Source of the DNA: a virus
DNA: 22,384 bases
Strand: one strand, 5' to 3'
IMG/VR virus record: IMGVR_UViG_3300007963_000054
Coordinates: 1-22,384 of that record
Shown here: in pieces, positions 1 to 22,384 of the stretch
Layout of the letters: the number at the start of each line of letters is the position of its first letter
How positions within the stretch are numbered: position 1 is the first letter of the stretch
Position numbers and translations under genes: made by a program
The notes under the pieces: generated by a model
The model's database searches: none
Seen by the model: only the letters and a program-made list of their open reading frames with translations
Told to the model about the DNA's origin: nothing

Positions 1-1053
1 CCAGAAAGTATTGCTTCTATAAAATATAATGCACCTTTGGATTATGCTGCTCAAGGAAGGTGTGTTACTACTGAAGATTATAAGGTTGTTGTTAAAGGTC
101 TATACAACGATACGAAATCATTACAGGTGTGGGGTGGTGAGAGCGGTTCTTATGATACAAGTCTTGGAGTTGTGGATACTAAAGAATATGGTAAGGTTTT
201 TATTTCAATTAAATCTACCACAGGACAAATGCTCACAAAACAAGAAAAAAATGAAATTGTCGTAGGACTTGCAACGTATAAAGTTGCAGGCATAACACCA
301 GTTGTGGTTGATCCAGAAACAACGAAATTGATATTGAATACTACGTTTAAATATGATTCTAGTAAAACAACGGAAACTAATTCTAGTCTTGTCACTCTTG
401 TTACTAATACACTAACAACATACAACACAGATAACCTTAGTCAGTTTGATGGGATTTTCAGATTATCCAAAGTTCAAAGACTCATAGATGAAACAAATTC
501 TTCATTGTTAAGTAATATTACAACTGTAACTATTGCAAATACAATTACTCCTACTTTAAATTCAGCAACTTCTTATACATCAACCTTTAATAATGCTTTC
601 TATGCTCCGTATTCTGGTTACAATAAAGAAAAGGGTGGAGTGATTGCAACAACTGGCTTTAAAATACAGGGTGATACAGTTAATACAATGTTTTTTGATG
701 ATGATGGTGAGGGCAATTTAAGAATGTATTATCTTGTTGCTGGAGCTAGAGTTTACCAATTAATTAACGGAACTACTACTGTAGGAACAGTGGATTATGT
801 TAAAGGTACTGTAAAAACTGTTAGTCTTACCATTACAGATATAGGCAATGTGGATGGTGCAACTTCTACATCAATTCGCATTACAGCAATACCTAGTTCA
901 AATGATATAGTACCAGTTAGAAATCAGCTATTGGAAATTGATTTTGTCAATTCAGTTATAACAGGTGAGGTTGACACTATCGCTGTCAGTGATGCCAGTG
1001 CTGGTTCTACTTATCAAACAACTTCATCCGTAACATCAACATCGAGCTACTAA
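1..1053 (+). CDS. 6: Baseplate wedge subunit gp6 (T4-like), C-terminal part; 5' end outside window
   Basis: The reading frame is open from base 1 and ends at TAA 1051-1053, so the gene begins before the window and about 350 residues are visible. In T4, gp6 forms the inner ring of the baseplate wedge and carries a baseplate-J-like fold. Visible family features are the segment around 'NAPLDYAAQGRCVTTEDYK' (nt 31-93), equivalent to the T4 stretch in which an aromatic/Gln-rich loop precedes 'AVTAEDY'. 'VWGGE' (nt 127-141) and 'YGKVFISIK' (nt 187-213) follow, then the 'GITPVVVDP' strand and the 'LSQFDGIFRLSKVQRLID' segment near nt 436-490. The TTG at 37 is not a real start, because the conserved sequence continues upstream of it. 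The last ~20 residues are Ser/Thr-rich. The next gene starts one base after the stop, which suggests coupled translation. The family call is by recognition of these motifs and is strong. Confidence 0.9.
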   Translation, partial: PESIASIKYNAPLDYAAQGRCVTTEDYKVVVKGLYNDTKSLQVWGGESGSYDTSLGVVDTKEYGKVFISIKSTTGQMLTKQEKNEIVVGLATYKVAGITPVVVDPETTKLILNTTFKYDSSKTTETNSSLVTLVTNTLTTYNTDNLSQFDGIFRLSKVQRLIDETNSSLLSNITTVTIANTITPTLNSATSYTSTFNNAFYAPYSGYNKEKGGVIATTGFKIQGDTVNTMFFDDDGEGNLRMYYLVAGARVYQLINGTTTVGTVDYVKGTVKTVSLTITDIGNVDGATSTSIRITAIPSSNDIVPVRNQLLEIDFVNSVITGEVDTIAVSDASAGSTYQTTSSVTSTSSY

Positions 1054-1054
1054 A

Positions 1055-4000
1055 ATGTCACCATTTGATAACCCATATGCACTGACCTCAGAGCTAGAAA
1101 ATAAAATTAGTACTCAGCTGTCTGGCCAGATGCCGATGTTTGTTACTGATGAACATCCACTATTTGTAAAATTTTTAAAATATTACTATGAGTTTTTAGA
1201 AGCTGGTGAACTTACATTAATTGCGACCATAGATAACATTGCTCAAGAAACAGCTGCTTCAAATCTCATACTTGATGAAAATGGTGAGAAGATTGTTACA
1301 GAGAGGGGTGCTGGTACTCTTACAAAATTTGTAATTGGTGAAACAATAACTGGTGGTACTTCTAACGCAACTGCAAAAGTACTTGCTGAAGATTTAGCAA
1401 ATGGTAAAGTTTTTATAACTGCAAAAACTCAATTCATTAATGGTGAAACTGTAACAGGAGGAACTTCTAGTTCAACAGGTACAGTAACCAAATATAGAGC
1501 AAACCCTATACAAAATATTCAACAGTTGTTATCTTATGCTGATGTTGATAATACGATATATGATTTTCTAGATCAGCTTCGTGATTCTTTTATGAATTCT
1601 ATTCCAAAGAAACTTGCTGATGGAGTAGACACAAGAAACTTAGTTAAAAACATAAGAGAATTATACAGAGCGAAAGGTACTTCAGAAGGTCATAAAATTT
1701 TTATGAAGATGCTTCTTGGAGAATCTGCTGAAGTATTTTATCCAAATACTCGTATGATGCGTGTTTCTGACGGTAAGTGGAATCTAGTAACAAAAATAAG
1801 ATGCTCTCCCGGCAATAATGTTGAAGCTTCAGAGGTTGTGAATAGAACTCTTACTGGGCAAACTTCTGGTGCAACAGTTGTCATAAGTAATGCTGCAACT
1901 TTTTCTGAAACTGCTGATCCTATCATAGAGTTTGAGGTTGATGCTTCATCTCTTGTTGGAACTTTTGTTAATGGCGAAGTCTGTAAAGCTGTATCAAAAG
2001 AAACTGGTTATAATTATGATTTTACCATTAGACAGATTGTTAATGGTTTTACTTTAACAAATAATGGTATTTTATATTCTGTTAATGATCTTTTAGATAT
2101 TGATAGCAATACTGCGATAGGTAATGGTCTTGCTGCAGCTAAAGTTAAAACTATTAAGTCGGGTAGTATTTTTGATATTGTTGTTGATGATGCTGGAACA
2201 GGCTATAGAGAAGGTGAACCTCTTGTATTTACAACTTCAGAGGATGATGTGGATACTGCTACAGGTGTTGTTTCCATTCTTGAAGGCTCGTTACTATTAG
2301 ATGGTACAGCAGAAGTTTTAGACAATGGTGTTACGCAAACTTCAACGGATGCTGGAGACTTCATAGTTCTAGAAGAGGGTTCTGTTTTTCATGAAAATGA
2401 ATGGTCATTCGTATTAGAAGATGGTACACTCAATGCTCCATATGCGGTATATGGAATTGATATCTCATATAGTGATACAAAAGGTTATTATTATCCTCTT
2501 TATCTTAATCTTCAAGATGCTGAAAGCTCAACTATAACAAAAGCAAAAGCAACCACTAACGGAAAAATAACTGATTCAAAAACTTTGGTTCTAGATGGTA
2601 ATAGTGGAACTATTGCAGTTGATATGGTGGTCTTTGGTGAGGGCCTCGATCCTAGTGCAACTATCAAAGTTGCAACTGTAACAGATCAAAATAATATAAT
2701 TTTGGATACAACAGTAACACTTGCTGATGATGTTGTATTATCTTTTAGATCAATTAAAACAGCAGTTCATACTCATAAATTTTTAGAGTTTCCTAACGAA
2801 ACTTTTTATATGCCATCTTCATCAACTAATCATCATAAGGACAGTTATGATTCCAGTACATATGATTTATATGTGAAACATTTACGATTAGATAGCACTG
2901 AGATTGCTGGTTATTCAGAAGCATCTGGCAGTCGTATTGCAGCAGAGTATGGAACTTCCAGACCTGTATCAAGAGATACTTACGGAACCAGTGCAGATAG
3001 AATTGGTCTTGAAGAAGGTTCTACAACAACTGAATCCAGTAGAGGAAGTATTGGTAGAGCAGTAGTAACTGATTCTGGTGGTGGTTATACTTCGTTACCA
3101 ACCGTTTCAGTATCAACTGGTGACGGTACAAGCACAAAACTACTAGCAACTACAACCGACATTGGAGGTGTTGATAGTGTTGAATTAACCAATATTGGTT
3201 TCAAATATTTTGAAGCACCGCAATCTGATTTTAGGGCAAACTTTGTTCTTAAAGATGTAACAGGAACATTTGCTGTAGATAATACGTTAACCACACACAC
3301 AGGAACGGTTAGAAGTTGGAATTCTAATACACAGGTTCTACAAGTAAGCATAGAAGATAATATAAGAGTTGCACTTAATATTCCTTCTTCAATTGCTATT
3401 GGTTTGGAAGATGGGCTTATTACCCACAATTCTGCTGATGGGAATCAAAACCTATTACAATTAGAAAATATTCTTGATGAAGGTGATCAGATAGTTGATG
3501 CTGATGGCAATCGAATTGTTACAGATGCTTTAGGAACGAGTGATGAATATCTTGTATTAGAATCTGGAAATGGGGAAACTGCTGGTAGTGCTATTATAAT
3601 GGAATCTGAGGATGCAACATATTTTCCACCTATTTCATTAGAATCTGCAACGGATACAACTGATGATGGCGGACATATCGTAAATGAAGGTTCTAGTGAT
3701 AACATTCTTACAGAGACAGCTGTATCAAAGGGTGATTCAACTGGTGGGCAACAAAATCAAAGAATATTAACAGAGTCATCCCAAAGAACTGAAGATGATT
3801 TTGGACCAATTGATTCTACTGATAATTTAACAGAAATCCGTGAGCTTGGCAGTGTATTTAATATCGGGGAACCTTTAAAATTTAATGGTGCAATCGTTGA
3901 GATTGGTGGTGCAATTCTTTTAGATGGTACAGATGCAAGTGGTACGGATGGCGGTAGTCAAATCCAGCATGAAGCTTTTGATGAAAGTAACAGTATTATT

Positions 4001-6391
4001 ATTAACGGCACGGATTCTGATTTATCAGATGCAAATGACGAGATTATATTAGAGTCTGGTTCTTTACCATCAGCTGGCAGTGTTGCGATTGATGGAACAA
4101 ACAGTTCCAGTTTTCATGCTGGTGATAATATTATTAATGAAGCAACTGGTATAGATTATTCTGCTGGAACAACAGTCATAACCGATAGTGGTGGAGCATC
4201 TGGAACGATTGTTAATGCTGATGTTGCAAAAGGTAATTTGTCTGTTGGTGTGACTACTGAAACATATGGTTCTTACGGAACTGATGTTGCCAGTCGTATC
4301 AGTGAAGATTTAATCCGTATACAGGATTCATATTATTATCAAGATTTTTCCTATGAGGTGCAAACTGCATCTGGAACAAATAGTTACATAAACGAACTTA
4401 GAAAAGCAGTACATCCAGCTGGATTTGTACCATTTGGTAAAGTTAGTATAGCAAGTTCTATTTCTGCTGCTATAGGAACGGTTGGTTCTAGTCTTGGTGG
4501 CGGTTATACTTCCGATACCGATACCTATTCACCGATACTTGCTTCCACTCTTGAAGTTATATTCTCTGAGACAATGCAACGCAGACTTAAAGCTATTGAT
4601 ATTGGTATTGGTAGTTTTGAAGAAGCAATTATATTGGAAAGTGAAGAGAACGCAAATAATGTTGGTGACACCATTGTTCTGAATGGTACAGATTCTTCAA
4701 GCACTAATGCTGGGGATTCCATACTAGCAGAAACACAACTTTTTGTTTTCCCCGACTTTGAGGGTATAGAACTTGAACATCAAACAGATACGAGTGCTGG
4801 TGGATACGGCCGTGTCATTCTTAATGGAACAGATGCATCATCTTCTAATGCTGGTGATATAATAATATCTGAAAGTGCAGAGGCATTATCAAACAATCTG
4901 GTTCTTGATAGTTATGAGGACAGTAATCATTTTGTAAGAACTGATGCTGGTAGTGACATATTATTAGATGGAACAGATTCAAGCTCTAGTAATTCTGGCA
5001 GTGCGATAGAATTAGAAGACCCTGTTTCTGACGGTAATGTAAAAATTGGTTTACAGACAATTGATAAAGATAAATTGTCAACACTTCTAAATGAAGATGG
5101 TGGAGATCAACAACTTGAAACCGCATTTGAGGGGGATGGACCAGATCACGAAACAGCTATAGTTTCCTTTATAAGCAGAAGAATTCAAATAGCAGATGCT
5201 CTACCAAGACATCTTTCCACTGGTGCTGTTACAATTGCAAGAGCAGGGTTTTCTAAAAGGGGTTCCATAGAACTAGAAGGTGCTCAAGAAAAAGGTAAAC
5301 TGTTAATTAATCTTGCTGAAACTGAAAGTGTAACTTATGCAACGCATACACATTCTGCTGGAGAAGGTTTTGCATTAGAGGATGGTACAGACCTTGATAG
5401 AGATAATTCATTTAGTTTTGTAGATATTGATAACTATCGAAATGATAAAATTGTTTTAGATGGACATAACGATTTGATTATTTTAAATGGCACTGATGGT
5501 AGTTCTTCTAATGCTGGTGATAATCTTATTTTAAATGCTACTGATGGTAGCGCTTCTAACGATGGAAGTAACATAGTATTTGATTCTGAATTTACAACTG
5601 GTCATAATATTTTGACAGAAGATGCTACAGATGCAAATTCCAGTGCCGGTGCTGATATTTTAGTTACCGAAGATATTTTTAGTGGCTCAGTATTCTTAGA
5701 TAATATTCAACGTAGTGATTTGATACTTATGGATGATGCTATCACGGATGCTACAGGTGGTAAAAGAAATAGTGATATAGATGGAACAGCAATTCTTTTG
5801 GAAGGAAGTGCTGGCACAGTCGCATGTAGACAAGAAGATGGAACACAAGTTGCGACCACATTTGGAGATCGTATTTTACTTGAGGGAGGTATTGGTTGGA
5901 ATGATCAATTAATGATAGATGTTCCTGATAGAATTGCAGCAGAAGAGGGTAGTAATAAGGGAACAATACCATTTAAAAATTATACCATATCAAAAACAGA
6001 ACCTTTAACAAGATCAGCTGAAATTAAAGGTCGAGATATAGGTCAGATATCATTAGAGGATGAAGCAGATGAAGTAACTAACATTAGGTTAGAAGGTCAT
6101 GGAGATGCTACAGGTATTATCATAATGAATGGTATCAACATAAGTTCTGAAGAAGAAGGTAATCCTATAGCAATGGAAAAACCTCATGATATTCCAATAC
6201 ATCATGGAACAGGTAGTGTTATTCTTAATGGTACTGATGGTAGTTCTACTAATGCTGGTGATCAAATAACATTTGAAGCAGGAACATTTGAAGAATTTGA
6301 AAGAAACTTCCCAACTCTTGTTCCTGCCCGTTGGGATTCAAAAAATACTACGTTTGATACGACTAATATAACATTTGATAACATAGATTAA
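1055..6391 (+). CDS. Large repetitive baseplate/tail structural protein (1778 aa), between gp6 and later baseplate genes
   Basis: The protein is very large and has a conserved head and a repetitive body. Residues ~27-50 ('MPMFVTDEHPLFVKFLKYYY' and on) and ~203-243 ('LYRAKGTSEGHKIFMKMLLG', then 'MMRVSDGKW') match the N-terminal region I know from large structural proteins of marine T4-like phages. That region probably anchors to the baseplate. Between them lie two 'GETxTGGTS' beta motifs (nt ~1327-1500). Residues ~570-610 hold a His-rich stretch ending 'YDLYVKHLRL'. From about residue 955 on there are some ten degenerate NGTD..S.NAGD units. The C-terminus reads 'VPARWDSKNTTFDTTNITFD'. The position after gp6 is that of T4 gene 7, but I see no direct gp7 signature, so I leave the symbol empty. 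ATG 1055 is one base after the gp6 stop and has no strong Shine-Dalgarno, consistent with coupling. A structural role is likely; whether it is a wedge or a fibre protein is unclear. Confidence 0.75.
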   Translation: MSPFDNPYALTSELENKISTQLSGQMPMFVTDEHPLFVKFLKYYYEFLEAGELTLIATIDNIAQETAASNLILDENGEKIVTERGAGTLTKFVIGETITGGTSNATAKVLAEDLANGKVFITAKTQFINGETVTGGTSSSTGTVTKYRANPIQNIQQLLSYADVDNTIYDFLDQLRDSFMNSIPKKLADGVDTRNLVKNIRELYRAKGTSEGHKIFMKMLLGESAEVFYPNTRMMRVSDGKWNLVTKIRCSPGNNVEASEVVNRTLTGQTSGATVVISNAATFSETADPIIEFEVDASSLVGTFVNGEVCKAVSKETGYNYDFTIRQIVNGFTLTNNGILYSVNDLLDIDSNTAIGNGLAAAKVKTIKSGSIFDIVVDDAGTGYREGEPLVFTTSEDDVDTATGVVSILEGSLLLDGTAEVLDNGVTQTSTDAGDFIVLEEGSVFHENEWSFVLEDGTLNAPYAVYGIDISYSDTKGYYYPLYLNLQDAESSTITKAKATTNGKITDSKTLVLDGNSGTIAVDMVVFGEGLDPSATIKVATVTDQNNIILDTTVTLADDVVLSFRSIKTAVHTHKFLEFPNETFYMPSSSTNHHKDSYDSSTYDLYVKHLRLDSTEIAGYSEASGSRIAAEYGTSRPVSRDTYGTSADRIGLEEGSTTTESSRGSIGRAVVTDSGGGYTSLPTVSVSTGDGTSTKLLATTTDIGGVDSVELTNIGFKYFEAPQSDFRANFVLKDVTGTFAVDNTLTTHTGTVRSWNSNTQVLQVSIEDNIRVALNIPSSIAIGLEDGLITHNSADGNQNLLQLENILDEGDQIVDADGNRIVTDALGTSDEYLVLESGNGETAGSAIIMESEDATYFPPISLESATDTTDDGGHIVNEGSSDNILTETAVSKGDSTGGQQNQRILTESSQRTEDDFGPIDSTDNLTEIRELGSVFNIGEPLKFNGAIVEIGGAILLDGTDASGTDGGSQIQHEAFDESNSIIINGTDSDLSDANDEIILESGSLPSAGSVAIDGTNSSSFHAGDNIINEATGIDYSAGTTVITDSGGASGTIVNADVAKGNLSVGVTTETYGSYGTDVASRISEDLIRIQDSYYYQDFSYEVQTASGTNSYINELRKAVHPAGFVPFGKVSIASSISAAIGTVGSSLGGGYTSDTDTYSPILASTLEVIFSETMQRRLKAIDIGIGSFEEAIILESEENANNVGDTIVLNGTDSSSTNAGDSILAETQLFVFPDFEGIELEHQTDTSAGGYGRVILNGTDASSSNAGDIIISESAEALSNNLVLDSYEDSNHFVRTDAGSDILLDGTDSSSSNSGSAIELEDPVSDGNVKIGLQTIDKDKLSTLLNEDGGDQQLETAFEGDGPDHETAIVSFISRRIQIADALPRHLSTGAVTIARAGFSKRGSIELEGAQEKGKLLINLAETESVTYATHTHSAGEGFALEDGTDLDRDNSFSFVDIDNYRNDKIVLDGHNDLIILNGTDGSSSNAGDNLILNATDGSASNDGSNIVFDSEFTTGHNILTEDATDANSSAGADILVTEDIFSGSVFLDNIQRSDLILMDDAITDATGGKRNSDIDGTAILLEGSAGTVACRQEDGTQVATTFGDRILLEGGIGWNDQLMIDVPDRIAAEEGSNKGTIPFKNYTISKTEPLTRSAEIKGRDIGQISLEDEADEVTNIRLEGHGDATGIIIMNGINISSEEEGNPIAMEKPHDIPIHHGTGSVILNGTDGSSTNAGDQITFEAGTFEEFERNFPTLVPARWDSKNTTFDTTNITFDNID
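3914..6281 (+). repeat. Degenerate NGTD..S.NAGD protein repeats inside the 1055-6391 gene
   Basis: About ten to eleven units of roughly 20 codons share the pattern I-hydrophobic-L-(N/D)-G-T-D-x-S-S-x-N-A-G-D-x-I-x-x-E. They begin near nt 3914, 3994, 4083, 4673, 4816, 4960, 5478, 5528, 5611 (weak), 6121 (weak) and 6219. The best-preserved are those at 4673, 4816, 5478 and 6219. Spacing is irregular (about 50 to 530 bases), so this is not a simple tandem array. Codon choice differs between units, so the repeats are conserved as protein rather than as DNA. Asp/Asn-rich turns between short strands suggest a beta structure that may bind calcium; this is inference. The same motif recurs once in the DUF4815 gene near nt 12658-12770. 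Confidence 0.8.
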
Positions 6392-6759: not shown

Positions 6760-8568
6760 TTGATCATCAAATCTGGTACAACAACAGCTGCAACATTTAG
6801 TGGTGCCAATGTAACACTTGCTGGTACTGTTGCCTCTACTGGTGTTCTTACTGCTAATGCTGGCGTGGTAATAGATAATTTTACAATTGATGGTGCAGAG
6901 ATTGATCTATCTTCTGGTGATTTAGAAATTGATGTTGCCGGAGATATAACACTTAATGCAGATGGTGGTGATTGGAACTTTAATGACGATACTGCATCAA
7001 TATTAAAAATTACTAATAGTTCAGGCGATGTTATTTTTAAACCAACCACAGACGCAAAAGATATTATTTTTCAACAGTATGATGGAACGGAAGTTGCAAG
7101 AATAGAAGACGGTGTTCAACTTAATGTAAGTGCAACTACAGCATCCTCAAGCACCACAACTGGTGCGTTGATTGTTGGTGGAGGTGCTGGTATTGCTGCT
7201 GACCTTTCTGTTGGAGATGATATTAATCTTCTCTCAGATAGTGCAGCTATATTTTTTGGTGCTGATAAAGATATTGTGGTTTCCCATAATGCTGATGTCG
7301 GGCTGTTTATAAAAAATGCAAATACTGGTGATGATAAACCAATTGTTCTTAATCTACAAACTGGTGAAACGGATATTCAAGCTTCTGATGTATTAGGAAG
7401 TATTAGATTTAATGCTCCAGACGAGGGCACAGGAACAGATGCCCTATTAGTTGGTGCTGCTATTGATGCTATTTCAGAAGGTAATTTTAGTTCTTCAAAT
7501 AATGCAACAAAATTAGCATTTAGAACTGGCGCAAGTGAAACTGCGACAGAGAAAATGGCTTTGACTTCTGGTGGTAATTTACAATTACCTACTGATACCA
7601 CTGTTCTTAGTTTTGGTGCAGATAGTGAGGTTACTTTAACGCACGTTCACAATACTGGTTTGCTTTTGAATAGCACAAACGTCATTCAGTTTAACGATGC
7701 AAGTCAGAATATTGGGGCTCCAAGTGCAACCGTTCTGGATATCAATGCTACAGATGAGATCGAACTTAACGCAACTCTTGCTGATGTCAATGCAAACCTA
7801 GATGTTTCTGGAACTTATACTGGTGGTGGATTGATGACCACTGGTGGAAACATTGTTATTCCAGATGCTGGAAATATTGGTTCTGCCAGTGATACGGATG
7901 CTATCGCAATTGCTTCTGGTGGGAGTGTAACATTTAGTCAGGCTCCAGTATTTCCTGATGGTTCTATTAATATTCGAGATTTGGATATTGATGGTGCTGC
8001 TGCGACATCAACTCTTGCTGATGCAGACCTGTTTATTGTTGATGACGGTGCAGGGGGAACAAACAATAAGGTAACTGCTACTAATGTAAGAGAATATATG
8101 GGTTTTGGTAGTGGTACTGTTATGTTGTTTCATCAATCTTCTGCCCCTACAGGGTGGACAAAATTAACAGCAACAAGCACTGAAGCACTTGCTGATGCAG
8201 CAATAAGGGTTATTGGAACTACTTCTTATAATGCTGGTGTGAATGGTACTGTAGCATTTGAAACCGCATTTGCAAGTAAATCTGTTGCTGGTAATATTGC
8301 TGGTAACACCGCTGCAACTACATTGCAACTTGCACAAATTCCATCTCATTCTCACTCCCTTGCTGCCAGTCCTAGTACGGCCGATAATAAACAATCTGGA
8401 GCCAAACCTACGGCAAGCAGCAATTCTGGACTTAACTCAGGTGCGAACACTGGCAGTGCTGGTAGTGGGCAATCTCATACTCATGGCGTAGGTAACTTTG
8501 CTTTTACTGGTACAGCAATTGATATGGATGTTAAATTTATTGATGTTATTGCTGCAAGTAAGGATTAA
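6760..8568 (+). CDS. gp10-like fibre/tail-collar protein, C-terminal part, continuous in frame with 6427-6699
   Basis: The frame is open from 6700. TTG 6760 is merely the first possible start and has no Shine-Dalgarno, so this is probably not an independent gene. From the N-terminal side the protein shows fibre repeats ('IIKSGTTTAATFSGANVTLA'), a 'TTGALIVGGGAGIAADLSVG' module (~nt 7150-7215), and a module ending 'NATKLAFRTGASETATEKMA' (~nt 7500-7560). Next is a copy of the ~135-residue repeat also found in the 17599-19836 gene (nt ~7590-7920). The C-terminal tail-collar domain starts at 'GTVMLFHQSSAPTGWTKL' (~nt 8116) and carries 'IPSHSHS' and 'QSHTHGVG', His-x-His pairs of the kind that bind metal in T4 gp12 and gp37. 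It ends 'MDVKFIDVIAASKD'. The likely role is a baseplate-attached short fibre or adhesin. Without its N-terminal anchor the product would probably not assemble. Confidence 0.8.
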   Translation: MIIKSGTTTAATFSGANVTLAGTVASTGVLTANAGVVIDNFTIDGAEIDLSSGDLEIDVAGDITLNADGGDWNFNDDTASILKITNSSGDVIFKPTTDAKDIIFQQYDGTEVARIEDGVQLNVSATTASSSTTTGALIVGGGAGIAADLSVGDDINLLSDSAAIFFGADKDIVVSHNADVGLFIKNANTGDDKPIVLNLQTGETDIQASDVLGSIRFNAPDEGTGTDALLVGAAIDAISEGNFSSSNNATKLAFRTGASETATEKMALTSGGNLQLPTDTTVLSFGADSEVTLTHVHNTGLLLNSTNVIQFNDASQNIGAPSATVLDINATDEIELNATLADVNANLDVSGTYTGGGLMTTGGNIVIPDAGNIGSASDTDAIAIASGGSVTFSQAPVFPDGSINIRDLDIDGAAATSTLADADLFIVDDGAGGTNNKVTATNVREYMGFGSGTVMLFHQSSAPTGWTKLTATSTEALADAAIRVIGTTSYNAGVNGTVAFETAFASKSVAGNIAGNTAATTLQLAQIPSHSHSLAASPSTADNKQSGAKPTASSNSGLNSGANTGSAGSGQSHTHGVGNFAFTGTAIDMDVKFIDVIAASKD

Positions 8569-9347: not shown

Positions 9348-10850
9348 ATGGCAGCAATTATCACAGAAAAATTCAGACTTCACAATGCAACTCAGTTCTA
9401 TGAGTCCTTTAGTGAAACATCAAAAAATCTTTACTATCTTATGATAGGAAAAGCTACACCCTTTACATCAACGACTTCTGGTGGTTCTGATGAATCACCC
9501 CCAACACCAGCTGATGATGTTAGTAGTAATTACTATGAATGGGACCAAACTATTGCACTTAAAAATATATCAAGTTCAGATATAACGTATACTTTGCCTC
9601 GCAGAAATTGGGCAAATGGTACGACTTATGATATGTATGAACACAACATAAGCTCTTCCAATACTACGACTTCTGGTGCAACAAATCTATACGATTCTAC
9701 ATTTTTCTTTAGAACTGCTAATAACAGGGTTTACAAAGTATTAGATAATAATGCGGGCTCTGCTTATTCTGGTGCTGAACCTACTTCTGAATCAACTTCA
9801 CCTTTTGCGATTGGTGGATATGTTCTCAAATACATGTATACAATTACTGCCTCTGAACAAACTAAATTTTTGACAACGGATTTTATGCCAGTTTCCACAG
9901 ACAGTACTGTAAGTGCAGCTGCCACAGATGGAAAGATTGAGTCACTTATAATTACTGCTGGATCAGGATATACTGCTGGAACATATTATGCAGCAGTGTA
10001 CGGAGATGGATCAAGTGCTGGTACATCCTCTGGTGCAATTGTTAGTATCGTTGTTGGAAGTGGTGGTACAATTACTTCATTTGGATTAACTGCTGGATCA
10101 GATACAACAATACACTCTGGCGGTTCTGGTTATACATATGGAACAGTAAATATTGGATCAAGTTATACATTTTCTGATGCTGCTCTTAGTAGTTCTTCCT
10201 CAATGGGAAGTGGTACAGGTGGAGCAGTTCAAGTTGTAATTAGTCCTAAAAATGGACATGGTTATAATGCTGTAGAAGAATTGGGTGGTCACTATGTTAC
10301 CTGTAGAGCAACTTTAACAGGAGCAGAAGGTGATGACGTTTTGACAGGGAATGATTTTAGAAACATTGCTATTGTCACCGATCCAACTACATACGGAACA
10401 TCTACAGTTGCTACTGCAAGTACATATCGTCAAACTTATGCAGCCAAATTAACTTCTGTATCAGGAACATTTACTGTTGATGAAAAAATATCTCAAGCAT
10501 CTACAGGAGCTATTGGTAAGGTTGTTGAGTGGGATAGTACTCTCTCGATACTTTATTATCATCAAGAAAAATATGCAGACTATGGAACAAATAGCACAAC
10601 AGGTGCTTATGTTGCTTTCTCTGGTGCAAATGCGATAACAGGTGCTTCTTCCAGCGCAGCAGGGACTCCTGATGCAGATGCTGATAGTGCGGTTACTCTC
10701 GCAGGCAATAATACAATCACATTCACAAATGGATATGCAAATCCAGAGTTGCAACCAGACAGCGGTAATATCATATACAGTGAAAACAGAAAACCAATTT
10801 CAAGAGCAACTGATCAAACTGAAGATATCAGGATAATAGTGGAATTCTAA
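9348..10850 (+). CDS. 8: Baseplate wedge subunit gp8 (T4-like), enlarged
   Basis: The C-terminal 23 residues ('SENRKPISRATDQTEDIRII' then VEF) correspond closely to the end of T4 gp8 ('MENRPPIIMAMDQTEEINIL' then FTF). The N-terminus agrees as well: 'TEKFRLHNATQFYESF' followed by 'LYYLMIGKATPFT' and 'YTLPRRNWANGTTYDMY', as in the T4 'VIPRRDWGD' region. In T4, gp8 forms a dimer in each wedge and binds gp7, gp10 and gp6. At 500 residues this version is longer than T4 gp8 (334). The surplus is mainly a Gly/Ser/Thr-rich insertion at about residues 195-300 with two 'GSGYT' motifs, and a 'GTFTVDEKISQASTGAIGKV' beta motif near residue 375. Its own late promoter and ribosome site lie just upstream. 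The TAA stop is one base before the next ATG. Confidence 0.9.
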   Translation: MAAIITEKFRLHNATQFYESFSETSKNLYYLMIGKATPFTSTTSGGSDESPPTPADDVSSNYYEWDQTIALKNISSSDITYTLPRRNWANGTTYDMYEHNISSSNTTTSGATNLYDSTFFFRTANNRVYKVLDNNAGSAYSGAEPTSESTSPFAIGGYVLKYMYTITASEQTKFLTTDFMPVSTDSTVSAAATDGKIESLIITAGSGYTAGTYYAAVYGDGSSAGTSSGAIVSIVVGSGGTITSFGLTAGSDTTIHSGGSGYTYGTVNIGSSYTFSDAALSSSSSMGSGTGGAVQVVISPKNGHGYNAVEELGGHYVTCRATLTGAEGDDVLTGNDFRNIAIVTDPTTYGTSTVATASTYRQTYAAKLTSVSGTFTVDEKISQASTGAIGKVVEWDSTLSILYYHQEKYADYGTNSTTGAYVAFSGANAITGASSSAAGTPDADADSAVTLAGNNTITFTNGYANPELQPDSGNIIYSENRKPISRATDQTEDIRIIVEF

Positions 10851-17368: not shown

Positions 17369-17599
17369 ATGAGTAAAAATTATGTCGAAGTTGAAAACCA
17401 TCCTGATTTGGCAAGAGATATCGAAACCGGAGCTGTTGTAAATCGTAATCGTCATGCATATGAAATGGCAAAAAAACGTGCTGCAGAAGCGCAAAGACAA
17501 AGGGATGAAATAAGAAACACCACAAGGGAGATAAATAATATAAAATGCGAAATGCATGAAATTAAAAATCTTCTTAAAGAATTGATAGGGAAAGAATAA
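17369..17599 (+). CDS. Small coiled-coil protein of marine T4-like phages
   Basis: The product is 76 residues. The N-terminus 'VEVENHPDLARDIETGAVVN' followed by 'RNRHAYE' resembles short uncharacterised proteins in the same position in T4-like cyanophages ('DLVRD..T.AV.N.D..AYE'). Residues ~28-75 are a charged helix with regular hydrophobic spacing ('IRNTTREINNIKCEMHEIKN', 'LLKELI'), a likely coiled coil. The ATG starts two bases after the TGA of the DUF4815 gene with no clear Shine-Dalgarno, and its TAA shares one base with the next ATG (TAATG). Both suggest coupled translation. A structural or assembly role alongside the neighbouring fibre is plausible but not shown. Confidence 0.7.
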   Translation: MSKNYVEVENHPDLARDIETGAVVNRNRHAYEMAKKRAAEAQRQRDEIRNTTREINNIKCEMHEIKNLLKELIGKE

Positions 17600-19836
17600 T
17601 GGCAGTAACAGCAAGTTCAGTAGGGACGGGAGATACCCTCGAAACCTTTAGACAAGAGTTCAATAATGCTGTAGTTGATCTAGGAAATCTAGATAGCGCA
17701 TCAGTATCGTCTATTTCTATTTCTGCGAATAACTCTACAAATGAAACAGTTTTTCTCACATTTGTTGATGGTGCAACTGGTAATCAGGGATTGGAATCTG
17801 ATACTGGATTAACATATAATCCTTCAACTGGATTAATAACTACTGCTACTCTTACTACTACAGGACTTATTACTTCTGGTAGTAATATAGTAATTGCAGA
17901 TGCTGGAACTATTGGTAGTTCTTCTGATACAAATGCTATTGGTATTTCTTCTGGTGGTGTTGTCTCAATAACAGCAACAACCGCAAACACAAGTGCCTCT
18001 GATGGAGCATTAACTGTAGCCGGTGGTGCTGGTATTGCTGCTGATCTTTCTGTTGGTGATGACCTTAGACTTATTTCAGATGCTGCTGTTCTTAGTTTTG
18101 GTGCAGATAGTGATGTTACTTTAACACACGTTGCTGATACAGGTATTTTATTAAACAGCACAATGGCAATTCAGTTTAATGATGCGTCACAGTATATTAA
18201 TGCACCTTCCAATGCAATTTTAGATATTAATGCTACAGATGAAATTGAATTGAACGCAACTCTTGCTGATGTTAATGCAAACCTAGATGTAAGTGGTACA
18301 TATACTGGTGGTGGTTTGATGACCACAGGTGGTAATATTGTTATTCCTGATGCTGGTAATATTGGTTCTGCTTCAGATACAGATGCGATTGCAATCAGTT
18401 CTGGTGGTGTTGTTACATTTAGTCAAACACCAATATTCTCTGGTGACTTACAAATAGAAGATGACTTAATTCTAGATTCTGATGCCGCAGTTATTTCGTT
18501 TGGTGAAGATAACGAAGTTACTCTAACACATGTTGCTGATACTGGACTTCTTCTCAACAGCACCATGCAACTACAATTCAATGATGCTTCTCAGAATATT
18601 AACGCACCAAGTGCTACAGTTTTAGATATTAACGCAACGGATGAGATCGAACTTAACGCAACTCTTGCTGATGTAAACGCAAATCTAGATGTATCAGGCA
18701 CATATACTGGTGGTGGTCTTATGACTACGGGTGGTAATATCGTTATACCTGATGCTGGTAATATTGGTTCTGCTTCAGATACTAATGCAATTTCAATTTC
18801 TTCTGGCGGTGTTGTTGCAGTAACAGCAACAACTGCAAATACAAGTGCTAGTGACGGTGCATTAACTGTCGCTGGTGGAGCTGGAGTTGCAGCAGACTTA
18901 TCAGTTGGTGATGATCTTAGACTTATTTCCGATGCTGCTGTTCTCAGCTTTGGTGCAGATAGTGATGTTACTTTAACACATGTTGCTGATACAGGTATTC
19001 TTCTGAATAGCACAATGGCAATTCAGTTTAATGATGCTAGTCAGTCTATTAATGCGCCTAGCAATGCTATTCTCGACATTAACGCCACAGACGAAATCGA
19101 ATTGAACGCAACTCTGTTAGATGTTAATGCGAACATAAACGCAAGTGGAACATACACTGGTGCTGGATTGATGACCACAGGTGGTAATATAGTCATACCA
19201 GATGCAGGTAATATTGGTTCTGCTTCAGATACAGATGCGATTGCAATTTCATCAGGTGGTGTGGTAGCAATTAGTGCAACAACTGCCAATACAAGTGCAT
19301 CTGATGGTGCATTAACTGTTGCTGGTGGTTTGGGTGTTGCTGCTGATGCATCTATAGGTGATGATCTAAGATTAATTAGTGATGGTGCAGTTTTATCGTT
19401 TGGTGCTAACTCAGAAGTTACAATGACCCATGTGCATGATACGGGTCTTACTATGACGCACACTGCAACAGGCGATAACACGCCAATGGTACTACAATTG
19501 AAATCAGAAGAAGATGCGATTGTAGCCAATGAGGTTATTGCTTCTATTGAAATGGCAGCAGGTGACTCTGATGGCACAGACGGCGCAACAGTTGCTGCTG
19601 GTATTCACGCAATTGCAGAGGGTACTTTCTCTGCTAGTGCTAACGCAACCAAACTGGTTTTTACATGTGGTGTATCTGAGACTGCCGCTTCTTCTGCAAC
19701 TGCTAAGATGACACTTGCTTCAGATGGTGATTTAACTCTTGCCGGAACTGTAACTGCTGATGCAACTGCAACTCTTCTTATAAAGAACTCAAGTGGTTCC
19801 ACATTGAAAACAATTAATGGTATTGCAGCAAACTAA
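17599..19836 (+). CDS. Repeat-built tail fibre-like structural protein (745 aa)
   Basis: The N-terminus 'GTGDTLETFRQEFNNAVVDL' is a short fibre-anchor type sequence comparable in layout to the gp10-like 'GTGDTIRVGGDKINDNFSEI'. The body is made of repeats. A 'SASDGALTVAGGAGIAADLS' lead-in is followed by 'VLSFGADSDVTLTHVADTGI', then 'LDINATDEIELNATLADVNA', then 'GGNIVIPDAGNIGSASDTDA'. Three full units and a fourth partial one are seen. The C-terminal ~150 residues ('FSASANATKLVFTCGVSETA' and around) match a module in the gp10-like gene, and the protein ends 'LIKNSSGSTLKTINGIAAN'. No tail-collar or other receptor-binding C-terminal domain is visible. The composition (Ala, Ser, Thr, Gly, Asp; almost no Cys) fits a trimeric beta fibre. 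The ribosome site is AGGGAAAG (17587-17594). A fibre role is inferred from repeats and context. Confidence 0.8.
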   Translation: MAVTASSVGTGDTLETFRQEFNNAVVDLGNLDSASVSSISISANNSTNETVFLTFVDGATGNQGLESDTGLTYNPSTGLITTATLTTTGLITSGSNIVIADAGTIGSSSDTNAIGISSGGVVSITATTANTSASDGALTVAGGAGIAADLSVGDDLRLISDAAVLSFGADSDVTLTHVADTGILLNSTMAIQFNDASQYINAPSNAILDINATDEIELNATLADVNANLDVSGTYTGGGLMTTGGNIVIPDAGNIGSASDTDAIAISSGGVVTFSQTPIFSGDLQIEDDLILDSDAAVISFGEDNEVTLTHVADTGLLLNSTMQLQFNDASQNINAPSATVLDINATDEIELNATLADVNANLDVSGTYTGGGLMTTGGNIVIPDAGNIGSASDTNAISISSGGVVAVTATTANTSASDGALTVAGGAGVAADLSVGDDLRLISDAAVLSFGADSDVTLTHVADTGILLNSTMAIQFNDASQSINAPSNAILDINATDEIELNATLLDVNANINASGTYTGAGLMTTGGNIVIPDAGNIGSASDTDAIAISSGGVVAISATTANTSASDGALTVAGGLGVAADASIGDDLRLISDGAVLSFGANSEVTMTHVHDTGLTMTHTATGDNTPMVLQLKSEEDAIVANEVIASIEMAAGDSDGTDGATVAAGIHAIAEGTFSASANATKLVFTCGVSETAASSATAKMTLASDGDLTLAGTVTADATATLLIKNSSGSTLKTINGIAAN
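18058..19440 (+). repeat. Tandem in-frame repeats, ~402 and 450 bp, within the fibre gene
   Basis: Units start at the codons for 'DDLRLISD' or its equivalent: 18058, 18460, 18910 and 19360, giving spacings of 402, 450 and 450 bases (134, 150 and 150 residues). The first unit lacks the ~16-residue 'TTANTSASDGALTVAGGAG' type lead-in before the next unit begins. The fourth unit keeps the start and then diverges after about 19440 into a different C-terminal module. The encoded residues are nearly identical while many third positions differ, so selection acts on protein rather than on recent DNA duplication. A related copy is in the gp10-like gene at about 7590-7920. Confidence 0.85.
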
Positions 19837-19848
19837 GGGTGTTAAACA

Positions 19849-20802
19849 ATGACTGCTAGAACCCTAGTACATTACGATGGAACAGACATAAAAGCAATGA
19901 CCTCAGCTGAAATGGTAGAAATTCAAAAAAGAATGATCTACCATTATGGCACTGCTGCAACTGTTGCATTAACCGTAGATGGTAGCTCTGCTGGTAATCT
20001 AACCGCAATGTCTGATACAAGATTACAAGCAGGTGCGACATCTCAATCCAGCACTGCTTTCGTTGCAGAAGGAACAACTGCTGAGCCGGGTACGGTTACA
20101 GTTTCTTATGACAAAATACATCTTGCATATACTTCTTCTGGAAGCATAACCAAAACAGCTGATGATGGTGATACCTTTCCGATGTATCTAGATGCCAGTA
20201 ATAATCTTCAAGCATTAAACCTTGCTGACTTTAAGGATACTCTTCTGCATCCAGCAATTGATCTTATGATTGCAAGTGCAGATAGTGACAATACTGCAAA
20301 ATCATTTACAATCACAACTAGTTCTACTGCTGCAACTGGTTATACAAATATTTCTTCAACAGCAGTTTTTGGAGATACAAGAGCAAATACAAGTGCATAT
20401 TCTTCTGATGGTATACCTGAGACACTTGATCAGCCAACCTCTGTGCTTACAAACTATTATTTACATCAAAAAAATAATATGGCTGCACCCACTCCAAGTG
20501 TGTTTCCTTTAGTAACAGATGGCGATGGTAATTTAAATCAAATGTCAACCTCTACCATAGATAGTGTTTTGGGCGCTTGGCTGAGATTTACTGCTGCTCA
20601 TTCTAGTGATGGTTATAAAATTACATACGACACGGCAGCATCTGGTGGTAATACAAAAGGCACTGCTATGGTGGATACGAAACTTGATGGCTCTGGTAAC
20701 TATCAAACTCGACAGGTTGGTGACGATTATCGATCACAAGAATTTCCAAATGGATCGGCTGCAACTGTAACAACGTATAATTTGCGTATAAATAAAACAT
20801 AG
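19849..20802 (+). CDS. Conserved marine T4-like phage structural protein (317 aa)
   Basis: The N-terminal part 'MTSAEMVEIQKRMIYHYGTA' and the following 'GNLTAMSDTRLQAGA' form a pattern I recognise from putative virion proteins of T4-like cyanophages and relatives. The function is not known to me. No catalytic motif, signal peptide or membrane segment is visible. The rest is Thr/Ser/Ala/Asp-rich and probably beta-structured ('SITKTADDGDTFPMYLDASN'). The ribosome site AAGGG overlaps the stop of the fibre gene, 10 bases before the ATG. Placement directly after the fibre suggests a fibre- or baseplate-associated part. Its final codons contain the late promoter of the next gene. Confidence 0.65.
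   Translation: MTARTLVHYDGTDIKAMTSAEMVEIQKRMIYHYGTAATVALTVDGSSAGNLTAMSDTRLQAGATSQSSTAFVAEGTTAEPGTVTVSYDKIHLAYTSSGSITKTADDGDTFPMYLDASNNLQALNLADFKDTLLHPAIDLMIASADSDNTAKSFTITTSSTAATGYTNISSTAVFGDTRANTSAYSSDGIPETLDQPTSVLTNYYLHQKNNMAAPTPSVFPLVTDGDGNLNQMSTSTIDSVLGAWLRFTAAHSSDGYKITYDTAASGGNTKGTAMVDTKLDGSGNYQTRQVGDDYRSQEFPNGSAATVTTYNLRINKT
20787..20794 (+). promoter_or_regulatory. T4-type late promoter element TATAAATA for the 20812 gene
   Basis: This is a perfect TATAAATA inside the last codons of the 317-residue protein gene. T4 geometry puts the start near 20800, so the transcript would begin almost at the ribosome site AGGAG (20801-20805) ahead of ATG 20812. The leader would be very short but usable. 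The element overlaps coding sequence, so chance is a little more likely than for the two intergenic copies. Confidence 0.6.
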
Positions 20803-20811
20803 GAGTGAAAC

Positions 20812-21405
20812 ATGGCCATTGAAGAAGGAACCCCATTTGCATTTTGTGGACGTATAATAGAAGCATATTATACTAATCCAGAACTAGATACGATAGGTGT
20901 TATCTGGAGCGATGGAGAAAAAAATCGTGAGTATTATGTTGTGGTTGATGAGGAGGACGAGCAGTTTCAAGCTCTTTTAAAAGAATACTCATATGAAAGT
21001 CTTGATGAGACTACACGCAATAGAAACGAAGCAACAAGACAAGAGTTTAGAGATGCATTTCACAGATATGCAACTCGAAATAATTTGTATGGCCATGGAA
21101 ATCCAGATGGACAAGTAAAGACTGAAACTGAAATTGTTGAGCTTGAAATTGATACTGTGAGAGAAAGAGAGGTTAATGTTGCTAGTTCACAAAAAGCGCA
21201 CCACTCTTTTGAATTCCTACTAGATAATTTATCTGAGTTTGATCCTGACAATGAACAACATAGAGAACAATTATTCAAATTAAAGCTTAAAGCATTTGAA
21301 AAAGATGTTGTTACAAAGAGTAAAGCAAAAACAAAAAAGACTGCTCTTCGCAAAGCAGAGAATCCATTACAAGTATTGAGTGCATATCAATCTTTTCTAA
21401 AATAG
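20812..21405 (+). CDS. Hypothetical protein (197 aa), charged, function unknown
   Basis: I do not recognise a named family. The N-terminal ~60 residues look like a small mixed alpha/beta domain ('FAFCGRIIEAYYTNPELDTI', then 'VIWSDGEKNREYYVVVDEED'). The remainder is mostly helical and highly charged ('RNRNEATRQEFRDAFHRYAT'), with a Lys-rich segment near the end ('VVTKSKAKTKKTALRKAENP'). There is no signal peptide or membrane segment. It has a strong ribosome site (AGGAG, six bases before ATG) and a late promoter match just upstream, so it is probably made late. A virion or assembly role is inferred only from its place at the end of the structural block. ATG 20812 is chosen because of that ribosome site. 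Confidence 0.7.
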   Translation: MAIEEGTPFAFCGRIIEAYYTNPELDTIGVIWSDGEKNREYYVVVDEEDEQFQALLKEYSYESLDETTRNRNEATRQEFRDAFHRYATRNNLYGHGNPDGQVKTETEIVELEIDTVREREVNVASSQKAHHSFEFLLDNLSEFDPDNEQHREQLFKLKLKAFEKDVVTKSKAKTKKTALRKAENPLQVLSAYQSFLK

Positions 21406-21445: not shown

Positions 21446-22384
21446 ATGAAGATATTGGGAATTTCTGAAGGCTTTCATGATGCTGCGGTTTGTTTACTGC
21501 ATGATGATAAAATACATTATGCATCTTCCAGTGAAAGATATAGTGGCATCAAAAATGATAAATGGATTCATAAGGACCAATGGCCCACTAGTAAATTAAA
21601 TAAACCTGATGTTGTTGCATACTACGAAAAACCATTTCTCAAAAATTTAAGACGTTGGTATGCTGGTCAAAAATGTCAGAAACCAAGATTAAAATATGAT
21701 GTAAACTTTGGCCATCATGAGTCTCATGCTGCTGCTGGATATTATACTGCACCCTTTGATGATTGTAATGTTCTTGTTATAGATGCGATAGGGGAATGGG
21801 ATACTATCTCTATATGGGAAGGCAAAGATAACAAACTCAAAAAAATTAAATCTTGGAAGTATCCATATTCCCTTGGACTTCTTTACTCTGCAATTACACA
21901 TCGTATAGGGTTAAAACCCAATGAAGATGAATACATCACTATGGGCATGGCAGCATTTGGTGAGCCAAGATATGACTTGACTGAGTTATTGTGGAAAAAC
22001 AACCATAAAGGCGTGGGTCAGATATGGAGTGGTGCAAAGAATGAAGACCTTGCAGCATCCGTACAAGACCTGTACGAGAGAGAGTTTCTTAAACTCGTAG
22101 AACAATGCCCTAAAAAGAATCTTGTTATCATGGGTGGTTGTGCTTTAAATTGTGTTGCAAACTCAAAGATCAAAGACAAGAACCTTTGGATTATGCCATC
22201 ACCCGGCGATGCTGGTAGTGCATTAGGTGCCGCTGCTTTAGTGCGAAAAGAAAAAATTCAATGGAGTTCTCCATATCTTGGATACATAATATCAAGGCCA
22301 ATTGAGCCAAAAGATGTGGTTGATGAACTCTTAAAGAATAAAGTTTGCGGGATTGCAAATGGTAGAGCAGAGTTTGGTCCTAGA
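21446..22384 (+). CDS. NodU/CmcH-type carbamoyltransferase, N-terminal 313 residues; 3' end outside window
   Basis: The frame is open to the last base. Family members transfer a carbamoyl group from carbamoyl phosphate, via a carbamoyl-adenylate, to a hydroxyl group of a small molecule or sugar. Visible motifs of the Kae1-like domain are 'ILGISEGFHDAAVCLL' (H11, D12), 'ER' at 30-31, 'HHESHAA' (H90, H91, H94; the H-x3-H pair is the metal site in TobZ), 'DAIGEWDT' (113-120), 'GGCALNC' (230-236) and 'PSPGDAGSALGAA' (D255). The window ends in 'GRAEFGPR' (306-313), the start of the family's second conserved block, so the YrdC-like domain is cut off. That block comes earlier than I expect for full-size members (~570 aa), suggesting a shortened first domain. 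The ribosome site is AAGGTG (21433-21438). Related genes are known in T4-like cyanophages. The substrate could be a cell-surface sugar, a nucleotide or a modified base; the sequence does not say. Confidence 0.88.
   Translation, partial: MKILGISEGFHDAAVCLLHDDKIHYASSSERYSGIKNDKWIHKDQWPTSKLNKPDVVAYYEKPFLKNLRRWYAGQKCQKPRLKYDVNFGHHESHAAAGYYTAPFDDCNVLVIDAIGEWDTISIWEGKDNKLKKIKSWKYPYSLGLLYSAITHRIGLKPNEDEYITMGMAAFGEPRYDLTELLWKNNHKGVGQIWSGAKNEDLAASVQDLYEREFLKLVEQCPKKNLVIMGGCALNCVANSKIKDKNLWIMPSPGDAGSALGAAALVRKEKIQWSSPYLGYIISRPIEPKDVVDELLKNKVCGIANGRAEFGPR

Follow-up and report, generated by a model that had tools for sequence, protein, structure and literature searches.

The window, by which we mean the whole stretch of 22,384 bases that was analysed, is a complete virus record and represents a fragment of a marine T4-like virus; with the whole window as query, megablast returned no close phage record. 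Among its genes (Table 1) is one for a T4 gp8-like baseplate wedge protein, which places the locus studied here in the T4 structural operon. At the far end lies a gene for a predicted class III O-carbamoyltransferase (CT), inside which the contig ends.

Table 1. Features of the window, with positions counted from its first base.
Feature	Position	Strand	Remarks
Baseplate wedge match	1-1053		phrog_219
1778-aa protein	1055-6391		baseplate and head-closure matches
Tail-protein match	6760-8568		phrog_5795; same cluster (cl16) as 17599..19836
T4 gp8-like baseplate wedge	9348..10850	+	PF09215, phrog_438
2171-aa protein	10852-17367		matches phrog_358 (unknown function), E 0, 1847 bits; apparently a large conserved structural protein
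cl16 gene, 745 aa	17599..19836	+	clusters with the phrog_5795-matching 6760-8568; probable tail/fibre protein
Conserved gene cl3, 317 aa	19849..20802	+	without family match; upstream of CT, late block
TATAAATA box	20787..20794	+	starts 25 nt before the ORF at 20812
Conserved gene cl4, 197 aa	20812..21405	+	without family match; directly upstream of CT
Compact class III O-carbamoyltransferase (CT), predicted	21446..22384	+	N-terminal 313 of ~445 residues; Pfam, PHROG, alignments
His11 codon	21476..21478	+	aligns with GdmN general base H27
HHESH codons, residues 90-94	21713..21727	+	two Fe ligands (GdmN H133/H137)
Asp113 codon	21782..21784	+	Fe ligand (GdmN D156)
Asp255 codon	22208..22210	+	Fe ligand (GdmN D333)

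The CT open reading frame starts with ATG and meets no stop codon before the contig end, giving 313 aa in which the Kae1-like domain is complete and the YrdC-like domain is cut off. The product matched PF02543, the N-terminal Kae1-like domain (E 2.5e-41), and phrog_1601, a 'Nol-like carbamoyltransferase' in the PHROG category moron/AMG (E 8.8e-38). Both values are far beyond chance and bear out the NodU/CmcH-type enzyme proposed in the initial annotation. The kind of enzyme is known, and PHROGs already has a label for the copies in phages. Relatives were collected by two scans, one keeping the best 80 of 248 confirmed viral relatives and the other the best 80 of 481, so the counts given here cover just the closer relatives; ORFs and their starts in these loci were called mechanically. 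An uninterrupted start-to-stop CT gene was present in 78 of the 80 viral relatives, the other two being cut by sequence ends (L067 on the 3' side and L072 on the 5' side).

Complete viral relatives are 437-456 aa long. The canonical bacterial CTs used for comparison, 26 rows, span 563-694 aa, and the compact form that had been suspected from the early arrival of a second conserved block is thus real. All four full-length relatives checked matched both PF02543 and PF16861, the C-terminal YrdC-like domain, above cut-off. Compared with the 26 canonical rows, the compact enzymes lack segments after residues 51, 80, 194, 275, 288 and 295 (numbered in L005, a full-length viral relative) and, at the C terminus, a tail spanning about 30 columns. 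As read from these alignments, compactness is a loss of loops and not of a domain.

In the window protein the motifs HDAAV, HHESH, VIDAIGE, GGCALN, PGDAGS and AEFGPR start at residues 11, 90, 111, 230, 253 and 308, with D113 in the third and D255 in the fifth. In GdmN, the iron ligands are H133, H137, D156 and D333 and the base is H27 (PMC9633730). In an alignment of 61 rows (25 compact, six bacterial compact-clade, 26 canonical and four phage 5-hydroxymethylcytosine (hmC) enzymes) the iron ligands were present in every row and the base His in 60; only L168 lacks it, its row starting at an annotated start codon that falls within the match. The key first-domain motifs for which the enzyme had earlier been said to look active are all in place, and with candidate ligands at H90, H94, D113 and D255 and a candidate base at H11 the protein looks active as far as its sequence goes. 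The segment S-G-I-K-N-D had been singled out as departing from the pattern expected in the family; the departure is real, but it is not unusual, since the Lys is kept in 25/25 compact, 24/26 canonical (R in the other two) and 4/4 hmC rows, and N or G commonly follows it among relatives.

An AF2 model of the L005 enzyme (pLDDT 81, pTM 0.83) matched GdmN best, end to end (Z 34.7, rmsd 2.8 A, 445 residues), followed by TobZ (Z 33.7), NovN (33.0) and VtdB (30.6), with 442-447 residues aligned across the four. The next family after these O-carbamoyltransferases was TsaD, which aligned over residues 1-276 of L005 (Z 18.2, 252 residues). The predicted fold is thus the GdmN/TobZ fold over the full length.

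The relationships of the enzyme were examined in a quick maximum likelihood tree of 71 rows, with SH-aLRT values as the only support, for which compact enzymes were thinned so that each group at 80% identity had one member (25 kept), and 26 rows of canonical bacterial enzymes were selected from 73 loci. The compact enzymes grouped in a single 36-row clade with support 100, inside which the window CT lay nearest to L005 (80% identity over 313 columns); we place the product of the window gene in this compact, separate clade of the class III O-carbamoyltransferases. The clade holds 29 phage-type rows, including L088 and L091, which come from contigs binned in bacterial MAGs. It also contains phage C48C1 (505 aa), a Streptomyces parvus enzyme nested among the phage rows, and a bacterial subclade (support 97) of Antrihabitans, Mesorhizobium, Glycomyces, Actinomadura and S. 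goshikiensis (471-495 aa). Canonical bacterial, cyanophage/pelagiphage and hmC enzymes fell outside it, the last as a clade of their own (support 100, branch 2.19). The long branches of S-SCSM1, HTVC008M, Mosig, BF503P2 and C48C1 are placed unsurely. The contigs of L088, L089 and L091 were binned in Gammaproteobacteria, Parcubacteria and Rhodobacteraceae MAGs but, judged by CT and partner, appear to derive from phages; that of L089 agrees in length and range with the viral contig of L046.

All-against-all clustering of the ORFs in the loci revealed one family beside the CT, an SGNH-fold protein (clusters cl0 and cl35). Among 79 viral loci (the 80 less L067, in which the CT is cut on its 3' side) the SGNH gene adjoined the CT gene in 70, being next downstream in 68 and next upstream in two (L044 and L046); in six of the remainder it lay elsewhere, L043 and L045 had none, and L012 ended too early. 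When a single locus was kept among those with equal-length CTs more than 95% identical, the two genes were adjacent in 40 of 47 non-redundant loci, compared with 9.6 expected under random order. The partner started between -70 and +1 nt from the CT stop in 66 of the 68 downstream cases (90 and 97 nt in the other two), and in the virus of the window it would therefore lie beyond the end of the contig.

A profile built from phage partners only matched the CT neighbours of Glycomyces (1.6e-9) and Actinomadura (6.1e-8), both of them DUF6071 proteins, and the SGNH partner is by this comparison a predicted homologue of DUF6071 (PF19547). In the reverse direction, PF19547 gave values of 7.5e-5 and 1.8e-4 with phage partners of clade C, below cut-off, and no match in scans of a phage cl0 protein and of the L091 genome. 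As the Pfam model misses the phage-type partner in L091, zeros obtained with it apply to DUF6071 proper. In the bacterial compact-clade loci the pair was adjacent in four of six (L093, L094, L168 and L169), and the L094 partner matched PF19547 with E 1.5e-29. On a plasmid of S. goshikiensis the annotated DUF6071 gene overlaps the CT gene by 4 nt, and on one of Mesorhizobium huakuii it lies 274 nt upstream. The Antrihabitans partner (L092) starts about 765 nt past the CT stop, with one ORF between. In S. parvus the partner (G018:C12:47045-47764) and the CT (~59290-60597) lie about 11.5 kb apart on opposite strands of the same contig, and the surrounding genes include NRPS modules and TauD; this cluster in strain JCM 4069 (L090, L174) also holds an amidinotransferase-like gene with weak dimethylargininase matches and a thioesterase gene besides the DUF6071 and TauD genes. 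The nesting of the S. parvus CT within the marine phage clade of the quick tree suggests an apparent exchange of genes between phages and Streptomyces.

PF19547 had one match in each of the four actinobacterial genomes with a compact-clade CT, a match in only one of 394 genomes sampled within the class to which Glycomyces belongs, that one being the centre genome, and none in 49 further genomes, 48 of which carry non-compact CT relatives (29-35% identity); the 0/49 result, which alone is not proof of absence, was obtained with the same query that matched 4/4 actinobacterial genomes. No partner was detectable in the 31 kb fetched for C48C1, which the quick tree puts in the compact clade, or around the larger CTs of HTVC008M and S-SCSM1, and tblastn with the L005 partner against the annotated phage collection found Mosig only.

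The model of the partner (pLDDT 91) has an SGNH fold, with TesA as best match (Z 15.1, rmsd 3.0, 171 residues aligned) and carbohydrate esterases and PatB among the others. Residues S16, R84 and H245 were invariant in 38 rows. Inspection of the alignment by eye showed no clear GxND motif for block III, mostly segments of the W-[ST]-x-x-x-R type standing in its place, and D-x-H replacing DxxH, the Asp being mostly at -2 and not -3 of the His. This suggests that the partner may not be an ordinary hydrolase. A literature search found no paper naming DUF6071, and among the literature matches listed, the titles and abstract beginnings did not mention a gene-cluster pair of a CT with an SGNH protein. 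In these searches we found no description of the frequent pairing, in phages as well as bacteria, of compact-clade CTs with SGNH proteins of the DUF6071 type.

At least one late-block gene (cl18, cl16, cl3 or cl4) preceded the CT gene in 31 relatives as well as in the window, and the SGNH gene followed it in 30 of the 31, the contig of the last (L012) ending 36 nt after the CT. The pair was followed by a varying number of genes, among them a radical SAM gene (cl17; PF04055, 2.6e-11) in 13 loci and a second (cl2), with a weaker match below cut-off, in nine. The families cl5, cl6, cl10, cl14 and cl15 occurred in 25, 23, 20, 18 and 16 loci, respectively. Cluster cl10 matched the Asp/Arg beta-hydroxylase family PF05118 and was present in 16 of the 19 loci with at least 4.5 kb after the CT; many loci end sooner. 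A T4 neck protein of the gp13/14 kind (PF11649, cl37) was encoded in seven loci, six of them also encoding gp15 (PF16724, cl47).

None of cl5, cl6, cl14 and cl15 had a Pfam match, and a PDB profile search gave no significant match for them (best E 0.12, 0.89, 0.086 and 0.3, respectively). On reading the alignments, the invariant DLD/DID motifs of cl6 and cl15 would fit GT-A-like enzymes, and cl5 looks Rossmann-like. Cluster cl14 (e.g. L008:15482-16768) is a conserved protein of 428 aa in L008 and 524 aa in L013 with many invariant His, Trp and Gly residues. In L064, on the same strand, and in L063, on the opposite strand and outside the set of 31 relatives, cl5, cl6 and cl15 precede the CT, indicating that the cassette has been rearranged there. 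In the most distant viral clade (L073-L083, ten loci; e.g. L073:2059-7491) genes for a QueC-like protein (PF06508, E 1.1e-5 in L073), a SPASM radical SAM protein and an NAD-dependent DNA ligase precede the CT pair in L073 and several other members, an arrangement that hints at some connection with 7-deazaguanine-type chemistry.

Among relatives of the window's lineage the pair opens a tailoring cassette (radical SAM, Asp/Arg beta-hydroxylase, glycosyltransferase-like and methyltransferase-like genes) between the tail/fibre and neck genes; for the window itself, C terminus and cassette are deduced from these relatives. A carbamoyltransferase among virion genes had initially seemed unexpected. 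It does lie directly behind T4-like structural genes, but it is not a lone enzyme: a tailoring cassette, placed ahead of the neck genes, usually begins with it in relatives.

The sequence TATAAATA, a T4-type late-promoter-like box, occurred in the 32 loci 54 times on the plus strand and three times on the minus strand, and in 13 of the 32, the window included, it stood 25-28 nt upstream of the gene that precedes the CT. No copy was found within 100 nt before the CT gene in any of the 32 loci. The window alone has four copies compared with 2.3 expected, which is not significant, and only the strand bias and position over the 32 related loci are therefore useful. A sigma-70 promoter scan around the CT gene was uninformative (six compared with 6.3 expected), and no terminator-like site was found on the plus strand between 20700 and 22384 of the window. 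With a box before the preceding gene, none before the CT gene and no terminator, expression by late read-through appears likely, and the cassette is probably expressed late. A literature search found no paper combining carbamoyltransferase, tail fiber, phage and radical SAM, and we did not find a description of a compact CT at the head of a tailoring cassette among late genes.

The reading that we favour, with a probability of about 0.5, is that the enzyme carries out late O-carbamoylation of a hydroxyl on a peptide- or amino-acid-like acceptor together with its SGNH partner, a glycan acceptor being the main alternative. By homology, the YrdC-like C-terminal domain would make carbamoyl-AMP from carbamoyl phosphate and ATP, and in the Kae1-like domain, which binds Fe, His11 would serve as base for passing the carbamoyl group to a hydroxyl. 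We infer that the CT acts jointly with the SGNH-fold DUF6071 homologue, with which it opens the cassette, putatively expressed late, that this phage lineage has between its tail/fibre and neck genes. The acceptor hydroxyl may belong to an amino-acid, peptide or protein-borne group and could perhaps be made by the Asp/Arg beta-hydroxylase of the cassette, and the carbamoylated product would then decorate the virion or leave the infected cell.

A peptide or amino-acid acceptor is favoured because two of the six bacterial compact-clade loci (S. parvus and Antrihabitans) are NRPS clusters. The Antrihabitans locus encodes, in order, an A-T-TE protein, a hexapeptide transferase, a 185-aa ORF, the CT, a 279-aa ORF, DUF6071, an Asp/Arg hydroxylase (PF05118, E 1.3e-49) and a GNAT protein. 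In S. parvus the TauD gene lies beside that for DUF6071, and in Mesorhizobium radical SAM and 2OG oxygenase genes are found nearby on the other strand. Such nearby hydroxylases are weak evidence, however, as 2OG oxygenases and other oxygenases also surround unrelated CTs in the marine phages examined.

Several contexts would instead suit a sugar acceptor, namely that of Glycomyces, where the neighbours are of sugar type (GT2, epimerase and GFO/IDH), that of phage clade B, with a UDP-glucose/GDP-mannose dehydrogenase, and that of Mosig, with a DegT-type aminotransferase. Here the CT would carbamoylate a sugar hydroxyl, and the cassette would build or edit a glycan on the virion or the host surface, both of them sites that the initial annotation had offered. 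NodU-type and TobZ-type enzymes act on sugars, the larger cyanophage CTs stand among annotated sugar epimerases, heptose genes and glycosyltransferases, and the resemblance of the partner fold to carbohydrate esterases and PatB, among others, is in keeping with this idea, as are the GT-A kind of motifs read in cl6 and cl15. Against it, cl6 and cl15 lack any significant family or PDB match, none of the cassette representatives examined from the window lineage matched a sugar-nucleotide enzyme, and there remain the two NRPS clusters. We regard a glycan acceptor as possible, with perhaps one chance in three left to it by this balance.

It is rather improbable that the pair is a phage-borne route to a specialised metabolite that acts on competitors or the host, has nothing to do with the virion and is only incidentally in a late position. 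The occurrence of the module in actinobacterial NRPS clusters, the nesting of the S. parvus copy in the phage clade of the quick tree and the other phage clades that hold the pair away from these structural genes are all what such a route would lead one to expect; the CT behind at least one of cl3, cl4, cl16 and cl18 in 31 relatives and the window, and the late-promoter-like box that 13 of 32 loci have ahead of the gene upstream of the CT, speak against it.

The initial annotation had also considered a nucleotide or modified base as acceptor. Phage 5-hydroxymethylcytosine carbamoyltransferases exist and belong to the same superfamily (PMC8670742), and the window enzyme could in principle hypermodify phage DNA in the same way. 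In all three hmC-type phages tested, a gene of the thymidylate synthase/dCMP hydroxymethylase family PF00303 lay within about 2 kb of the CT, whereas the family had no match in 17 of 17 records, namely 14 viral contigs with a compact CT (fragments of 27-115 kb, 663 kb in total) and three complete phages. It had no match in a fourth complete phage, Mosig, either; only C48C1 of these four falls in the compact clade. In the YrdC-like domain, the compact enzymes keep the canonical residues at the positions of L005 R325, K343 and R349, where all four hmC rows have T, N and M, and they keep D389, which is replaced by Y, Y, K and T in the hmC rows. With no PF00303 gene found, a separate clade and different YrdC-domain residues, a role in DNA hypermodification is disfavoured and we consider it highly improbable.

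For the favoured peptide-like acceptor, a fuller version can be proposed in which compact CT and DUF6071 SGNH-fold protein form an undescribed carbamoylation module common to actinobacterial NRPS clusters and marine T4-like phages, and in which the phages use it while the virion is being assembled, radical SAM enzymes and the beta-hydroxylase contributing, to make a peptide-like decoration that is both hydroxylated and O-carbamoylated, so that the phage would encode a tailoring pathway for its own particle; this version is speculative, and we think it unlikely in all its parts. The pairing itself turns the label 'Nol-like carbamoyltransferase, moron' into a testable two-gene unit. Because the pair also occurs in cultivable Streptomyces, Actinomadura, Glycomyces and Mesorhizobium, its chemistry could be solved there, and a related cassette in the cultured SAR11 phage Mosig EXVC030M makes a test feasible in a phage. 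The outcome would show what DUF6071 does and account for the presence of tailoring enzymes within the structural operon of ocean phages, and may uncover a new virion modification.

Among known systems, TobZ, GdmN, NovN and VtdB resemble the compact CT in having both domains (seen in its full-length relatives), the iron ligands, the base His and the predicted fold. The compact enzyme differs in its length of about 445 aa, in the loops and tail missing relative to the 26 canonical bacterial rows, in forming a clade separate from those rows (in a tree built without the PDB sequences of TobZ type) and in having an SGNH/DUF6071-type protein as its usual neighbour. NodU (NF041651) belongs to the same superfamily as full-length L005 (E 7.4e-34), but a direct NodU assignment was rejected, L005 scoring 117.4 bits against an equivalog cut-off of 1000. 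The 5hmC carbamoyltransferases of Xp15, MD-2021a and BF503P2 are likewise phage-borne and of the same superfamily as the window CT (PMC8670742); unlike the compact enzymes they form their own fully supported clade, have other YrdC-domain residues and are linked to a thymidylate synthase/dCMP hydroxymethylase. The CTs of HTVC008M, S-SCSM1, S-SSM7, P-RSM4 and Mosig also come from marine T4-like phages (cyanophages and pelagiphages), but are 501-600 aa long and lie outside the compact clade. The S. goshikiensis and M. huakuii plasmids carry the same pair of compact-clade CT and DUF6071 (PF19547), although it is bacterial there and the CT is longer (471-495 aa).

The crocagin peptide pathway similarly joins an SGNH-fold protein (the protease CgnD), a carbamoyltransferase (CgnI) and a hydroxylating enzyme (the dioxygenase CgnC) in one peptide-tailoring cluster (PMC10070186). 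CgnD matched the partner model with Z 12.3 and rmsd 5.0, behind TesA as the best match, and for the CT/SGNH pair crocagin may serve as an analogy only. The cultured Pelagibacter phage Mosig EXVC030M has a cl0-like SGNH gene (29% identity, E 6e-22) in a block with a radical SAM gene, a CT from outside the compact clade and two annotated Asp/Arg hydroxylases beside the tail-fibre genes. As annotated, this block (L175) also contains genes for a taurine dioxygenase, nitroreductases, a fatty acid desaturase, aminotransferases and molybdenum-cofactor-type enzymes.
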